Positions 5,362 to 11,720 of a stretch of DNA of 25,125 bases are shown in pieces. Position 1 is the first letter of the stretch, and the number at the start of each line of letters is the position of its first letter. A program made the translations under genes and the position numbers. Source of the stretch: a virus; the IMG/VR virus record IMGVR_UViG_3300034374_001468, positions 1-25,125 of that record. One strand, written 5' to 3'. The notes under the pieces were generated by a model that was not told the DNA's origin, did not search any database, and saw nothing but the letters and a program-made list of their open reading frames with translations.

Positions 5362-7824
5362 TTAGTTGCCAATCACGTTGCCCAAATCCGGGCCGCGCTC
5401 CGGTAGGAAGTCGCCCTGTTCCCACCATGATCTCTGATTGTAGTCGCGGTCCCAGCGCTGAGCGCGGCGTCGGAATGTCTTGCGGGCGTCGGGATCGGTC
5501 ATCAGCCTTATCTGGTCGATAAGCATCCGCTCCGTGGCGAGCCGCAAATACCAGACGCTCGAGCCCGGGGTGTATCGCGTGACGTAATCAGTCAGCTCGC
5601 GAGCGAAGTTGGTGTCCTCGCCCTGTGCAAGTTGCAGCATGTTGCCGAGAGTGAGGTTGATTGTGTCTGTGCCGAGGCCGGCGGTAGGGCCGGCAAGTGT
5701 GGCGCCGAAGCCGCTGCCGTAGCGGTTGATGTTTGAGAACAGAAAGTCGCCTACGATGCCCAGACCGCCGCCTTGCAGCAGCGCTGCGACCCAGAAATTA
5801 ACGTCATTGATTGGCCGTGGATCTCGGCCATAAACGATTTGCTTGGCCTCGAGGATCGCCGCGCCCATGACTGTCGTGCTTACAACGAAACCGGCAATCG
5901 CCGCATAGCGCTTTTTGGGGTCGGCGATTGCCCACATGCGGCCGAGGTTTTGATGCCACAGCGTCACCGGGAAGGATTTGAACTGTGCGACGCCGCGCAC
6001 GACCTCGCCAACAAACGTGCCTTTTGCAGTGCCTCCCCCAAGCGTTGCGCGAGCTCGCAAGGTCGCAACCGGCACCGCCTGATCCATTTGCCGCTCCATC
6101 ATCGACATGGCCTTCATGGCCAGCTCCTCGCGATACATGCGCGGGAGGTCGTCGCGAGAAGCGACATCGAGGATGCGCAGGAAGGTTGCGCCATCACGGT
6201 CGAGCAGCGGTGTGGCGCGGATCACGTCCCAATCTGCCGCGCTAATTCCCTCCGCATCCATGACCTGCTGAAGCCCGGGGTGCAGCTCGTCGAAGCGCTT
6301 GGCCACCTCGTCAGCAAGATAGCCTTGGAACTCGAGGCCGAAGGCTTGGCGGCCAGCTCGTGTAAACCCTGTCAGACCAGACGCGCGGTGAACGGTTTCA
6401 GCAATGCGGCGCGTGACACCTGGCTGCATGTGGTCGCCAAAGTAACGGGCGTTCATTGTGCCAACTTCGATATAGGAGTCAGCGACAAGGCCCATGCGCG
6501 CGGCAAACTTAGCGGCGTCCGCGTCCTGCCGCATTTCGCTGAATACTCGAGACATCAGCGGCGTGACCGGCATACCAATAAAGTTCGCCGCCATGCGCTG
6601 GGTATTGAAGTCGGACAGAGCCGTGATCGGTGCGCCACCAAGCAGCGCGCCAGAGACGACGTTGCGCGCGCCGCCCATAATCAATGCAGCTCGAGTGTTC
6701 GCGGTCGTGTCGCCCTTGTCCCAGAGCTTCCACATATTGTCGAACTTAACGAGGTCGCCCTGTAGTTTATCCAGCGCCTCATTGCCCGGACGCTCCGCTG
6801 CCTTCTTTTGTGCGTAGGCTCGCAGCGCAGAGATCGTGGCGTCCGGGTTTGGGCCGAGAACCTCGAGCTTGGTTATATCGCGCGCCATGTTGCGCAGGTG
6901 ATCGACCATCGTCTGAAATACGTCAGGGTCGCCAAACCGCTCCTGATACTCGCTCCAGCTCTTTGCGTCTTTGAACTTGAGGAAGCGGCTATCGGTGCGC
7001 CGGTTGTGAAGCGCTCGACCTCGAGGTGTTGTGCCTGGGATCAGATCGTTCAGGCCGTCCGACGCGATTGAATCGTAAACCTCGGAAAGCGCCGCACGGA
7101 TTGTGTCATCGTTGAAGGGCAGCCCGGTGCGGCCATCCACCATGTTCTCGATGTCGAGGCGGTCGCGGGTAAATTTAATCCATTCGTCCTTGGATACGTC
7201 GCGGATCAGCCGGCGGTCGTGGTGCTGCGGCAGCCCATAGTCGGCGCGCTTTGCAATCCGCATCCCAGCATTGTTTGCGCGCTGCCGCGCCAGCTCATGC
7301 GTTTGCTTCCACGCCTCTGCGAGCTCGCGGGCTGCCGGGTTTTTGCTGTCCTCGCCGAACGCTTCTTTTACTAGGTCGAGCTGCGTCGCGCGATTTCGCT
7401 CGCCGCCGGTGACGGTGCGTCGGAACTCGTACAGCACGCTGTCCATGTGCGCGAACAGCTCTTTCTCGACGCCTCGCTGATAGTAGGCAAGGGACACGCC
7501 CCGGCTAGAGTTGTCGGCCTCGATCAATGCTTGCAGCGCTCTGCCGGGGCGGAACGTGCCGCGCAGCTCGGGGTAGGCGAGCATGTCCTGTGCTCGAGCT
7601 TGAAACTTAACAGCCTGCAAGATCTTGACGCGCTTCGAGTGCGCTGCGTCTGCCTTCATACGGTCGAAAGTCTGGCGCCCGGCCGCTGCGTCAGCTTCCT
7701 CTGGCCCCATCGTTTTGACGTTTTCGTCATAGATGGCGTCGAAAAGGTCGCGCGAATATCGCGCCTGCTCCGGCGTTACGTCGCCAGCGGCTTCGGCTTC
7801 AGCAATACAATCGCGTAGGCTCAT
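5362..7824 (-). CDS. Large virion-associated protein, probably ejected with DNA
   Basis: The 820-residue protein follows the gp16-like gene directly. I place the start at the ATG at 7824, which overlaps the upstream TGA as ATGA and has a well-spaced AAGGA; an in-frame ATG at 7833 is closer to that sequence and less likely. The first 600 residues are mostly helical and charged, without a motif I can name. Residues about 643-662 (IAGFVVSTTVMGAAILEA) and 676-695 are hydrophobic and could insert in the host membrane. The C-terminal 70 residues (PGSSVWYLRLATERM, then RRRAQRW, WWEQGDFLPERGPDL) match the end of large structural proteins of many proteobacterial podoviruses. Placement among internal core genes suggests a role in DNA ejection. 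No lysozyme or transglycosylase motif was seen. Confidence 0.85.
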   Translation of the reverse strand: MSLRDCIAEAEAAGDVTPEQARYSRDLFDAIYDENVKTMGPEEADAAAGRQTFDRMKADAAHSKRVKILQAVKFQARAQDMLAYPELRGTFRPGRALQALIEADNSSRGVSLAYYQRGVEKELFAHMDSVLYEFRRTVTGGERNRATQLDLVKEAFGEDSKNPAARELAEAWKQTHELARQRANNAGMRIAKRADYGLPQHHDRRLIRDVSKDEWIKFTRDRLDIENMVDGRTGLPFNDDTIRAALSEVYDSIASDGLNDLIPGTTPRGRALHNRRTDSRFLKFKDAKSWSEYQERFGDPDVFQTMVDHLRNMARDITKLEVLGPNPDATISALRAYAQKKAAERPGNEALDKLQGDLVKFDNMWKLWDKGDTTANTRAALIMGGARNVVSGALLGGAPITALSDFNTQRMAANFIGMPVTPLMSRVFSEMRQDADAAKFAARMGLVADSYIEVGTMNARYFGDHMQPGVTRRIAETVHRASGLTGFTRAGRQAFGLEFQGYLADEVAKRFDELHPGLQQVMDAEGISAADWDVIRATPLLDRDGATFLRILDVASRDDLPRMYREELAMKAMSMMERQMDQAVPVATLRARATLGGGTAKGTFVGEVVRGVAQFKSFPVTLWHQNLGRMWAIADPKKRYAAIAGFVVSTTVMGAAILEAKQIVYGRDPRPINDVNFWVAALLQGGGLGIVGDFLFSNINRYGSGFGATLAGPTAGLGTDTINLTLGNMLQLAQGEDTNFARELTDYVTRYTPGSSVWYLRLATERMLIDQIRLMTDPDARKTFRRRAQRWDRDYNQRSWWEQGDFLPERGPDLGNVIGN

Positions 7825-10800
7825 GCGACGCATCCTTCAAAGCGATCTAACATTCTTTGATCTTGCTTGATCTCGTCGAGGAGCTGGCGCTTGCTGACGT
7901 TATCAACGACAGGCGTGCCGTCAGCCGCTTCGCGCGTTAGTGGCACGAAGTCGAGGAGATCAGATTGAGCTTGTGCGTCGGTGTCGAATAGGCCGACGTT
8001 CATAGGTGCGTCGCCGCCACGCAGCGGACGATCTACCTCGAGCTGCGCGCGCTGTGCGTCGGTAACGGGCTCGACGCCAGGAACCAGCGTTTGCTCGCCC
8101 TCACGCACCGTTTCGGTATTGTAATTTTGCGGCGCAGCATCTACACTTTCGTCGGAGGTTTGACCAATGCGGTTTTTCTCGCTCGAGGGCAAGTACCCCA
8201 CCGTGCTGCGCGACGACGGCGCGGCGTTCATACTTGATGACGACGGCACCTGGGGCGAGATCTCGGCCAAGGAGCTGCTGTCAGATACGCGCACCGACGA
8301 GCTGACCGCCGCAGAGTTTGACACAGAGCTGGCCGTGTTTGGCGGCAATCTCAGCACGTTGCCGACGACCTGACCGAACGACGCGTCCATCTGCGGCAAA
8401 ACACCCTCGTATAATTCAATCATCGCCTGATTAGCTGCGGCCTCAAGCGCGGGCCTGTCGTCTCGCAACGCCTCAAGTCGTGCTCTTAGCGCCTCGTCAG
8501 GGATGCCGGCGAAGGCTTCGTCGAGATCCTCGTCGCCGCGCACAATCTCATAAAGTTTGTGCCCGCCCCGACCATGCTTCGCATCGAAGAGGCCGCGCTC
8601 GATAATGATAACCTCGCCGATCACGCCGTCATCGTTGATGACCATCAGCTTCTTGTCGAAATAACCAGAATACGCCTCTTCGCCGACCGGAGCGCCTTTA
8701 TATCCCTCATCGACGATGTGGTACGTTTTACCCAGCTCTTTAACGAAAGCGTCTGCCTCGTCTGGTCGCGTAACCGTAACCGTCGCGCGGCTAACGTCGG
8801 CAATGCGGTTAAGGTTGCCGTTATACTTGTCCTGGATCTTCGCCTCGATCCGCTCGCGCCTTTTTGCCGGGCCTGGGTGATATTCAACGTCATGTTCGCC
8901 AGCGGCTCGCTTTACAGCCGCGTTAAGCTCAACATTAAAAATGTTGTTCCGCTCCACGATGTCGTCGATAGACGCATACGCTTGGCGCGATTGTAGTGTA
9001 GCGGCCAGACGCCTTAAATCTAACGGCTCCAGATCTTGCGCCAGGACAACGCGCTTCTTTTTCGCGTCAGGTCCGAGCTCGAGCATTTTTTCAGCGTTCT
9101 TTTGGGCGACTTCCTGCGCAAACTGTTCGTCGGTTACGACGCGAACCGGCAGCGTCTCCATGCCAGCTTCCGTGGCAATCGCATATGTCGAGTTGCCATC
9201 GAGTAGCGTATAGCTGCCGTCGCCGTTGTCCTTGACGGTGAGCGGGCCGCGCTTGGGCATCTCGTCTCGAGCAGCCTGCGCCATAAACTTGCGCGCGTTG
9301 GCAATGCCCTCTGGGCGAGCGCGGATCGGCACAATGTCCTCGCGCGCGATCTCGATGCTGTCAGGTGTGGGCTCAAGATAGTCGCGGTAATCCGGCCCGA
9401 TTGCGTCAGGATCACGCGGCGGCTCAGCGCCAACATAGTCACGCTCGAGCTGGTCAGCCTGCTGCTTTACGGCTGGGCCATCGGGCTCGTCGAACGCTGC
9501 TAGTTCTTCCCGGCTAGGGCTCGCCGCGAGGCGATTGCCTTCCTCCGCAACATCGACAGTGCGTCCTGCATCGCCAACATCTGCCCCATTGAAATCGCCT
9601 CGCTCAACTGCCGCTCGGACAGCATCGACGAAGGCTCGACTAGATCGGCTGATGTTTCCACTTTCTTTGAAGCTCCGGGCTGCCGCTGTGAGGGCGTCGC
9701 TAAGCTCGCCGCGTCTGTTGGCGACCGCCTGGACGATTTGGATCGCTTGGCCATCTGTTTCGCTCCTGCTTTGATTTTGCGCCGCCGCCAGCACGTTTCC
9801 TTCGCCTTCAATCCGTGCGCGGTTTTCGACGAGGGAATTGAACACGGCGCGGTCGCGGCGTAACTGCTTCAGCGCGGCGTCGAGAACACGAGCGCGCTCT
9901 TTGAATAGGCTGGTGGTAATCAGCTCCTCGCCGAACAAACCCACTTGTACGGCCGTGTCGAACTCCGCCTCGAGGGCCTGCCGCACAATCGCTTCAGCCT
10001 GCACCGTGTTGGTCGGCTCGGCTTCCGCCAAGAGCTGCATAATGGGGAGCTGGCGATCTTGGTCAGTGACAAGACGGCCAACGATAGCCGCATAGTTTGC
10101 TGGCACGACTTCGTTGACAACTGCGCCGAACGCTTCGTCCGATAGCCCAACAAGGTCACGCGCTTGGCGCACAAGGTTTGATCGAGGCGGCAGCTCGCCG
10201 ATACGCCCGGGCTCAACGCGGAGCACCTTCGCTGCGTCAATAGCAGTGCCGCTGCCTTCCGCAATGTTCTTCATCGCCGCAGTCACACGAGCTTGCTCTG
10301 GTGTGATGCCGTCTGATTCACGCAGCAGATTGCCGTAAATAACAGGTTTCTGGCTGGGATCTTGCGCCATGATGCGCTTGGCCAGACCAAGGCGCTGATG
10401 TCCGTCGGCTATGACGCGGCGGCCGTTGGCAAACTCATAAACAACGATCTGGCCGGCCTTTACGGGATCCCATTGCGTAATACCCTGCAAGCGCTCTGTA
10501 ACGCCGAACTCATCGCCGCCCATTTTGAACTGGAAGGTCTGCGCATCGACTTCGATGTCGTTTGGCTCAAACCGAAATATCGTCGCGTCGAGGTTGTCGG
10601 CGTGATGAATATCTTGCTGCCGGGGAGGGGCGGACGGCGCATCGACCAATGGACGCACATTGTCACTGTCACTAATGACCGCCTCGGCCTCGAGGGTGCG
10701 CTGCATGTGCTCGAGCTCTGCATCCTCGAGGGGATTGTCGTCAAACAAATCCTCCTGCGCCTGTATCTCCTCCTGCGCGCCACGGGCCACGGCCGGCAGC

Positions 10801-11720
10801 TCGACACCTGCTTCCTCTAATGCGCGGAGGCCGGCGGCGACCTCTCTATCGCTTAGGCTTTGCAGGCGCCGGTCCAGCTCGACAAGCGATGTCTCGTCGA
10901 TGCTTTGGTTGAGCTCGCGGGCGTATAGACCCAGCGGTGTCTCCAGCCGCCGCGCAGCGATCTCAAGCGGTGTAGCAATCGCGCCGCCAAACGCGGTGCC
11001 GCCAAGGAAGCCGGTTCCGACCGCCGCTGCAAATGTACCGGCGTCGTACTTGAGGCCAATCGAATCTCGCCACGCCGCCACGCTTGGTGACCCCTGCACC
11101 TCGATGCCGGCGTTAAGTAAGCCCTCGAACAGCGCGATCCTGCCGATGTTTTTAACCGCCAGGTCGCCGGGCTTGCGAACGACGCCGCCCATCACGTTCA
11201 TGGCGCCATAAGCAGGATCTTGCACCATGAGCCGCGCGTCGGCGCCCAAGGATCCGATAAACCCAAACACCTCGCCAAGAGCTGTGCGGCCTTGCTTCTT
11301 TGCGCGCTGCTCTGCGTCTAGAGCGAGCTGCTGCGTGGCGCTAATGTGCTGGTCGGCGCTAAGAACGCCCAGCTCGCTCTCGAGCTCTGGGTACTGCGCG
11401 ATAAGGGCGTTTATCTTCTCGACGCTGGTCGAGTAGCTATCCGACAGCAGGCCAAAGCGGTTGGCGAAGCGGTCAAGCGCGTCATACTCGACATTAAGCT
11501 CGATGTCGGGGCGCTCTGGCCGCTGGCCCGTAACCTCCTCGATGCGGTCGAGGATGGGCAGCCAATAGTTTCGATTGGCGGTGTTGTTGTTTTCGTACTG
11601 AGTCGTCAGGCGATCCCGCGTGTAGTCAGCCTCGAGCGCCTCCAGCAGTGACGCCGTAGGTGCGTAATCCTCGTCAAAAGTACGACCAAGAAGGTCGGGC
11701 TCTGAGTCGAATATCGTCAT
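7821..11720 (-). CDS. Giant internal virion protein with ParB-like and RelA/SpoT-like segments
   Basis: At 1299 residues and third in a gp14/gp15/gp16 order, this fits the T7 gp16 place (gp16 is about 1318). Residues about 140-260 hold weakly hydrophobic stretches. Residues 384-500 look ParB/Srx-like: a start of the F-E-P-N-D-I-E-V type, then A-N-G-R-R-V-I-A-D-G-H-Q-R-L at 431-444. A second ParB-like segment at about 796-862 carries L-L-D-G-N-S-T-Y-A-I-A-T. Residues 918-1115 resemble a RelA/SpoT nucleotidyltransferase fold: a basic R-R-E-R-I-E-A-K-I, D975-V-S-R978, a GEVIIIERG strand with E1036, and AKHG near H1049. Residues 1125-1185 are a Ser-rich linker lying opposite a plus-strand ORF. 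Such mixtures are known as polyvalent proteins. Catalytic activity is not shown. It overlaps its neighbours by ATGA at both ends. Confidence 0.88.
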   Translation of the reverse strand: MTIFDSEPDLLGRTFDEDYAPTASLLEALEADYTRDRLTTQYENNNTANRNYWLPILDRIEEVTGQRPERPDIELNVEYDALDRFANRFGLLSDSYSTSVEKINALIAQYPELESELGVLSADQHISATQQLALDAEQRAKKQGRTALGEVFGFIGSLGADARLMVQDPAYGAMNVMGGVVRKPGDLAVKNIGRIALFEGLLNAGIEVQGSPSVAAWRDSIGLKYDAGTFAAAVGTGFLGGTAFGGAIATPLEIAARRLETPLGLYARELNQSIDETSLVELDRRLQSLSDREVAAGLRALEEAGVELPAVARGAQEEIQAQEDLFDDNPLEDAELEHMQRTLEAEAVISDSDNVRPLVDAPSAPPRQQDIHHADNLDATIFRFEPNDIEVDAQTFQFKMGGDEFGVTERLQGITQWDPVKAGQIVVYEFANGRRVIADGHQRLGLAKRIMAQDPSQKPVIYGNLLRESDGITPEQARVTAAMKNIAEGSGTAIDAAKVLRVEPGRIGELPPRSNLVRQARDLVGLSDEAFGAVVNEVVPANYAAIVGRLVTDQDRQLPIMQLLAEAEPTNTVQAEAIVRQALEAEFDTAVQVGLFGEELITTSLFKERARVLDAALKQLRRDRAVFNSLVENRARIEGEGNVLAAAQNQSRSETDGQAIQIVQAVANRRGELSDALTAAARSFKESGNISRSSRAFVDAVRAAVERGDFNGADVGDAGRTVDVAEEGNRLAASPSREELAAFDEPDGPAVKQQADQLERDYVGAEPPRDPDAIGPDYRDYLEPTPDSIEIAREDIVPIRARPEGIANARKFMAQAARDEMPKRGPLTVKDNGDGSYTLLDGNSTYAIATEAGMETLPVRVVTDEQFAQEVAQKNAEKMLELGPDAKKKRVVLAQDLEPLDLRRLAATLQSRQAYASIDDIVERNNIFNVELNAAVKRAAGEHDVEYHPGPAKRRERIEAKIQDKYNGNLNRIADVSRATVTVTRPDEADAFVKELGKTYHIVDEGYKGAPVGEEAYSGYFDKKLMVINDDGVIGEVIIIERGLFDAKHGRGGHKLYEIVRGDEDLDEAFAGIPDEALRARLEALRDDRPALEAAANQAMIELYEGVLPQMDASFGQVVGNVLRLPPNTASSVSNSAAVSSSVRVSDSSSLAEISPQVPSSSSMNAAPSSRSTVGYLPSSEKNRIGQTSDESVDAAPQNYNTETVREGEQTLVPGVEPVTDAQRAQLEVDRPLRGGDAPMNVGLFDTDAQAQSDLLDFVPLTREAADGTPVVDNVSKRQLLDEIKQDQRMLDRFEGCVA
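8119..8158 (+). promoter_or_regulatory. Plus-strand promoter-like sequence and ribosome-binding site
   Basis: On the plus strand TTGTAA (8119-8124) and TACACT (8142-8147) are separated by exactly 17 bases, each matching four of six bases of the sigma-70 boxes. GGAGG follows at 8154-8158, eight bases before the ATG at 8167. Each element alone is ordinary; all three in the right order and spacing before the one protein-like plus-strand ORF make it a reasonable promoter and ribosome-binding pair. The distance from a start near 8154 to the ribosome-binding site would be very short, so initiation could instead occur further upstream. Confidence 0.45.
8167..8373 (+). CDS. Acidic 68-residue protein nested antisense in the gp16-like gene
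   Basis: This is the only plus-strand ORF here that reads like a protein. It encodes MRFFSLEGKYPTVLRDDGAA, then a D-D-D-G-T-W-G-E turn, a helical A-K-E-L-L-S-D-T-R segment and D-E-L-T-A-A-E-F; it is acidic, with 84% G/C at third positions. An ideal GGAGG stands eight bases before the ATG and promoter-like boxes lie upstream. The register is such that every Asp or Glu codon here reads as Ser on the other strand, which explains the Ser-rich stretch of the virion protein. Either this is a small added gene tolerated by a flexible linker, or the ORF is a mirror image of the linker; the ribosome-binding site favours the former. The fold recalls small unnamed phage proteins; function unknown. Confidence 0.55.
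   Translation: MRFFSLEGKYPTVLRDDGAAFILDDDGTWGEISAKELLSDTRTDELTAAEFDTELAVFGGNLSTLPTT

Follow-up and report, generated by a model that had tools for sequence, protein, structure and literature searches.

The window analysed in this study is a 25,125-base stretch of viral DNA (positions 1 to 25,125 of IMG/VR record IMGVR_UViG_3300034374_001468), which carries the head-tail module of a T7-like podovirus on its minus strand. One gene of this module (7821..11720, minus strand) is an intact open reading frame (ORF) in a T7 gene 16-like position and encodes a protein of 1299 amino acids, residues 905-1112 of which (8385..9008, minus strand) are a RelA/SpoT-family synthetase domain with the SYNTH fold. 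The domain is probably an Apk/Tas1-type pyrophosphokinase of the RelA/SpoT family, borne by a gp16-like ejection protein. Moreover, comparison of related sequences indicates that the domain is an exchangeable cargo, lying between a constant ParB-like region and a constant tail and replaced by in-frame cassette swap.

The original prediction had recognized the motif order of a RelA/SpoT-type nucleotidyltransferase in this protein, and all of the motifs it quoted are present in the intact frame: RRERIEAKI at residues 954-962, DVSR at 975-978, GEVIIIER at 1035-1042 and AKHGRGGHKLYE at 1047-1058. With the single domain sequence, the best match in the Protein Data Bank (PDB) was Tas1 at an E value of 0.09. 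A profile of 5 family members reached Tas1 at 7e-6, and a profile of 30 members reached Tas1/Apk1 at 6.3e-16 with the whole domain covered, as well as the exported alarmone synthetase SaSAS (8VX3) at 4.8e-6. In addition, an AlphaFold2 model of residues 905-1112, built from an input alignment of 30 natural sequences, had a pLDDT of 91.5 and a pTM of 0.85. The top structural match of the model was again Tas1 (Foldseek E 2.7e-6; VIA-align Z 14.6 over 167 residues, rmsd 4.1). RelA/SpoT-family structures, including RelP, RelQ-type, SaEAS, CapRel and long Rel enzymes, took the 26 leading places in the VIA-align ranking (Z 14.6 to 9.1), ahead of the first unrelated fold at 8.3. The profile search and the structure prediction that had been proposed as a check both placed RelA/SpoT-family enzymes on top with Tas1 first, and together these matches put the identity of the domain beyond doubt. 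Independent support came from two relatives (L040 and L041), in which the same slot is occupied by a Pfam-positive RelA_SpoT domain, detected above the curated threshold with E values of 2.9e-6 and 2.8e-8. In hhalign, this domain and the window family aligned in register (probability 95.8%, E 7.8e-9). The window domain itself had no match in Pfam, including RelA_SpoT (PF04607) at its cut-off, or in NCBIfam, and PHROG gave it no RelA assignment. A tblastn search with it against isolate phages and plasmids gave no match, and a sibling domain matched Bordetella phage PHB04 alone, and weakly.

The roles of individual residues were mapped against the literature on SaEAS and Tas1 (PMC12691689, PMC11782079) in an alignment of 31 family sequences, in which 17 columns were invariant and K953, K961, D975, R978, D1022, K1024 and E1036 were unchanged throughout. 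The basic helix bounded by K953 and K961 (8838..8864, minus strand, as are all features below) lies on the donor phosphate side. It is followed by D975-V-S-R978 (8787..8798), which corresponds to D327..R330 of Tas1 and D121..R124 of SaEAS (PMC12691689); at the syn2 pattern D-x-x-R-x-T, RAT is present in the window clade. The segment E1036-V-I1038 (8607..8615) holds the catalytic Glu and the E-x-Q site, and GGHKLYE at residues 1052-1058 (8547..8567) aligns with GHKYYE of Tas1. The Mg-binding Asp and the catalytic Glu of Tas1 (D327 and E382) are thus represented by D975 and E1036. The catalytic Asp, Arg and Glu (D975, R978 and E1036), on whose overlay the nucleotidyltransferase assignment had been made to depend, are present, invariant and aligned with Tas1, this overlay consisting of the profile alignment and the fold match and not of measured distances. 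The acceptor motif syn3 has been described as GxN in ppApp makers (Apk) and as SxH in ppGpp makers (RelA) (PMC12226406). In this family it is D1022-x-K1024, neither of the two, within the G-loop/syn3 motif G1019-Y-F-D-K-K1024 (8649..8666), where Y1020 is found in 30 of the 31 sequences and K1024 takes the place of Tas1 N370 as a different but invariant residue. The mapping therefore indicates that the donor and metal core was kept and that the acceptor side is the family's own. A G-loop insertion (residues 1012-1017; 8670..8687) was found only in the window, L001 and L005. A first HMMER alignment, which set the inserted YSG (1017-1019) on the YSG of Tas1, was rejected because insert-free siblings place G-Y-F-D-R-K on G-Y-S-G-V-N.

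Relatives were searched with the ParB-like region and not with the domain; 297 and 342 were confirmed in viral contigs, and the best 80 were kept per search. This constant region spans residues 370-759 of the 1299-amino-acid protein (VIADGHQRLGLAKR; 9444..10613), matches phrog_10691 (E 6e-74) and is found family-wide. The sequence after it varies between proteins, and a conserved tail of roughly 50 residues ends all complete ones; in the window, this tail comprises residues 1238-1299 (ending in LLDEIKQDQRMLDRFEGCVA; 7824..8009) and is common to all cargo classes and to the proteins with an empty slot. The intervening cargo cassette, with borders inferred from swaps in relatives, covers residues ~760-1237 (8010..9443). 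In a classification of 99 distinct proteins, the slot held a RelA-like domain of the window type in 33 (three sub-families), the Pfam-positive RelA_SpoT domain in 2, a more divergent RelA-like candidate (RelC) in 8 and a zeta-type kinase in 41; it was empty in 13, and 2 proteins were cut. The four zeta-type proteins tested (L022, L023, L024 and L039) matched Pfam Zeta_toxin (PF06414) with E values of 4e-14 to 9e-19, and the Walker A residues (GPP-A-GKS) of this cargo are invariant, together with acidic, His and Arg residues. The RelC cargo, which had no match in a PDB profile search and resembled the window family weakly (hhalign probability 70%), is likely RelA-like. Furthermore, a second, weak ParB-like segment lies within the window cassette (residues 799-880, LLDGNSTYAIA; 9081..9326; phrog_26387, E 0.013). 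In the window, L005, L007 and L097 it lies ahead of the RelA-like domain, and L008 and L015 lack it, which suggests that the cassette itself is modular.

On a tree of the ParB-like region, the cargo class changed at least 28 times in 81 proteins (shuffled mean 39), in several cases between almost identical tips. A RelA-like and a zeta-type locus (L054 and L056) are 97.5% identical over 8,027 bp on the left, up to 27 nt past the ParB-like region, then unrelated for 0.8-0.9 kb; beginning 142 nt ahead of the stop codon, they are again 96.2% identical over 3,393 bp. Similarly, the flanks of a zeta-type and a RelC locus (L051 and L057) are 98.3% and 98.7% identical. The left border of the swaps lies at most about 30 nt from the end of the ParB-like region, and in 6 of 7 pairs 125-180 nt separate the right border from the stop codon (293 nt in the other pair). 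It might be argued that such swaps are metagenome-assembly chimeras of co-occurring strains sharing the ParB-like region, since all cargo-bearing loci lie on metagenome contigs. This explanation is unlikely, and very little weight is given to it here: the junctions are in frame, unrelated pairs have their borders at the same places, and one backbone is found repeatedly with several cargo classes in separate metagenomes (L054, L056, L059, L062 and L060), while chimeras would still require reads across the junction of cargo and ParB-like region. Apart from the cargo, the 97%-identical contigs that carry L054 and L056 (G004 and G005) differ on a larger scale in the tail-fibre region (L117:2792-6812, L119:155-3659); they also show a 250-bp indel, smaller divergent stretches and small indels. 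These data suggest two separate hot spots of change, one for the payload and one for host recognition.

The alternation of two unrelated ATP enzymes in one slot also bears on the idea that the cargo works in the DNA-entry motor as an energy-consuming component whose ATP-binding folds drive genome translocation. The C-terminal part of T7 gp16 has indeed been proposed to ratchet DNA (PMC8954989), but near-identical or related phages interchange two unrelated folds and an empty slot, which would hardly be tolerated in a component of a motor, and we regard this explanation as most improbable. A polymorphic toxin in the MuF sense, with which the virion poisons susceptible cells and an immunity protein shields the producers, deserves more attention. 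RelA-like and zeta effectors have both been found fused to MuF head proteins, and Apk2 is bactericidal in Escherichia coli (PMC12226406, PMC5576092); moreover, PHROG head-protein profiles match the cargo, and a constant carrier with a variable C-terminal effector is seen here as well. However, of 100 ORFs tested, 91 are followed within 200 nt (88 within 60 nt) by the opening of the next large ORF frame. The cargo gene is thus almost always followed directly by its neighbour, in the window the gene of the 823-amino-acid virion protein, which leaves no space for an immunity gene, and none accompanies the cargo. In addition, G004 and G005 otherwise differ in the tail-fibre region and by the lesser changes listed above, no integrase was seen among the annotated proteins (the contigs being partial), and no MuF domain was found in the 1299-amino-acid protein with Pfam or PHROG, the carrier being gp16-like by position. 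A MuF-type toxin is accordingly considered unlikely.

Several observations weigh against an active, exchangeable pyrophosphokinase. The ATP-contacting Gln (Q384 in Tas1) is replaced by I, L or K at position 1038 in all 6 members of the window clade, the only clade to have lost it, and is kept in all 25 siblings outside; the equivalent of Tas1 K353 (position 999) is T, N or S in 4 of the 6 and K or R in 21 of the 25 siblings. With the Gln and the basic residue changed, the activity of the window copy may be weak or altered. Furthermore, the 13 relatives with an empty slot indicate that the cargo is not essential, every cargo-bearing member comes from metagenome contigs, and no cargo was found in the isolate stretches read, where two giant proteins are cut; Dunaliella viridis virus SI2, the only isolate with the short form, has an empty slot. 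The residue changes, together with the G-loop insertion in three members, would also fit a catalytically weak or dead copy that binds ATP, a host toxic small alarmone synthetase (toxSAS) partner or an antitoxin, and thereby serves as a decoy against defences or as a folded spacer. This is rather improbable, for K953, K961, D975, R978 and E1036 are still invariant, the 25 siblings retain E-x-Q, and the ratio of non-synonymous to synonymous substitution rates (dN/dS) within the window clade is 0.14 for L007/L008 and 0.29 for L008/L015. Within the sub-families, dN/dS was 0.03-0.29 in most pairs and 0.57 in one pair with just three changes. The window and L001 form the only odd pair, owing to a short cluster of changes: all 8 nucleotide differences fall in 33 bp of the donor helix (window 8832-8867), nearly all are non-synonymous (A952I, R954E, E956K, A960D, I962V), and the preceding ~220 nt and the following nearly 490 nt are identical. 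This cluster is probably a short gene-conversion tract. The suggestion that the domain might be a decayed structural remnant is thus unlikely for the family, which has low dN/dS, 17 invariant columns and an open frame, and is possible for the window clade, which has lost the Gln and in part the basic residue.

An Apk/Tas1-type pyrophosphokinase carried as cargo remains the favoured reading, and the following course of events is proposed. The 1299-amino-acid protein would be packaged and would enter the cell along with the DNA, as its gene position and its homology with a cyanophage protein in the gp16 position suggest, and its cargo would reach the cytoplasm. There, with ATP as the donor, it may pyrophosphorylate the 3'-OH group of an acceptor molecule; a purine nucleotide is the likeliest candidate, and tRNA is a possible one. 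An early burst of this kind could shift host nucleotide pools, translation or nucleotide-based defence in favour of the phage, and recombination in the conserved flanking DNA would swap the cargo, driven by counter-measures of hosts or rival phages. Catalysis, the early host effect and the driver of the swaps are progressively less certain. Most likely, the domain would act briefly and early on host nucleotides or tRNA, altering them for the phage's benefit; an immunity gene may be unneeded because the infected cell is lost anyway. Tentatively, and with somewhat less than even confidence, we propose a polymorphic-effector system in a T7-like ejection protein: a fixed slot would be reloaded, through recombination among close relatives, with unrelated ATP-using enzymes (zeta-type kinases, or RelA-like pyrophosphokinases whose D-x-K acceptor motif is new) acting on a doomed cell in the opening minutes of infection, without an immunity gene, and their alternation would track an arms race with nucleotide- or translation-based defences.

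The ORF listing and PHROG matches gave the minus-strand gene order terminase, portal, scaffold, capsid, tail tubes, internal proteins and tail fibre, with a large terminase, a portal (phrog_332, 1e-93), a major capsid protein and tail tubes followed by proteins of 184, 738, 1299 and 823 amino acids and a long tail-fibre-like ORF. The gene of the 1299-amino-acid protein comes after gp14- and gp15-like genes, lying between the 738-amino-acid gp15-like ORF and the gene of the 823-amino-acid virion structural protein (5362..7833; phrog_684, E 8e-175), with a 13-nt overlap with the latter. Its ParB-like region matches a 2571-amino-acid protein of Prochlorococcus phage P-SCSP1a (Autographiviridae), which occupies the gp16 position after the internal-protein genes. 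The same region also matches the C-terminal part of the PHROG portal profile phrog_21 (positions 1025-1338 of 1362), so that other virion proteins elsewhere seem to carry the ParB-like module as a fusion. A search for T7-type RNA polymerase gave no match in eight related records, and the positive control was likewise silent. Virus SI2 (L045, HQ332136.1), deposited as a virus of a green alga, has this podoviral gene set with the empty-slot form and is probably a bacteriophage. Similarly, the contig PANU01000051.1 (L017), assigned to a 'Flavobacteriaceae' metagenome-assembled genome, is a phage contig whose cargo protein matches that of L008, which probably reflects a binning error or a phage of a Flavobacteriaceae host.

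What short-tailed phages inject beyond the entry channel is mostly unknown. The alternation of an alarmone-type synthetase with a zeta-type kinase between near-identical phages is a natural experiment, in which the same phage carries a different payload, and the slot allows a prediction of the host pathways that come under pressure as infection begins. Moreover, the constant ParB-like region and C-terminal tail provide a searchable signature for more payload types, and the slot would connect these podoviruses to an effector repertoire known mainly from the MuF toxins of temperate phages and from secretion systems.

RelA/SpoT and DdrB-like ParB domains have been described in phage polyvalent proteins (Iyer et al. 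2017, PMC5512222), and MuF and polyvalent proteins of phages have been reported to carry RelA/SpoT and zeta-type domains as payloads (PMC5512222, PMC5576092). The comparison with polyvalent proteins made in the original prediction was apt: the 1299-amino-acid protein combines ParB-like regions with a RelA-like domain in a head-tail gene module, pointing to a virion protein, and BFVD matches include such proteins. Both have a RelA/SpoT and a DdrB-like ParB domain in one virion-delivered protein, and mosaicism was noted there as well; the published RelA/SpoT cases are from prophages of Spirochaetes and epsilon-Proteobacteria and from MuF fusions, whereas here two folds alternate in a fixed slot of T7-like podoviruses. 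The literature on ejection proteins mentions swapping of the lysozyme domain (PMC8954989), and the open-access literature searched yielded no description of a T7-like ejection protein with an exchangeable slot. Delivery of RelA/SpoT and zeta domains by phage proteins is thus known already, and the exchangeable slot appears to be new. The Apk2/MuF toxins of temperate phages, in which Apk2 domains make (p)ppApp and are toxic (PMC12226406), likewise have a virion protein as carrier and a variable C-terminal effector, with RelA-like and zeta effectors both known. Their carrier is a head protein adjoining the portal, with linked immunity genes; here the carrier is a gp16-like ejection protein with a constant tail after the cargo and no linked immunity gene. 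The toxSAS enzymes (FaRel2, PhRel2 and CapRel) share the toxSYNTH fold and the plan of donor-site residues (Z 11.7 for CapRel and 7.4 for FaRel2), but pyrophosphorylate tRNA, have an antitoxin and carry the canonical D-x-x-G-x-R instead of D-x-x-R. SaEAS/SaSAS of Streptomyces albidoflavus (PDB 8VX3) has the same fold with equivalents of D121, R124 and E182, and is also an alarmone synthetase that leaves its producer; unlike the phage protein, it is a Sec-secreted single domain that makes ppGpp and ppApp. The closest likeness is to Tas1/Apk1, the (p)ppApp synthetase of the Pseudomonas aeruginosa type VI secretion system (PDB 6OX6), which shares the fold, the full-length profile match, D-x-x-R, E382 and GHKYYE at ~20% identity, and differs in its PAAR carrier and immunity protein, in GxN at syn3 instead of D-x-K, and in E-x-Q where the window has E-x-I.
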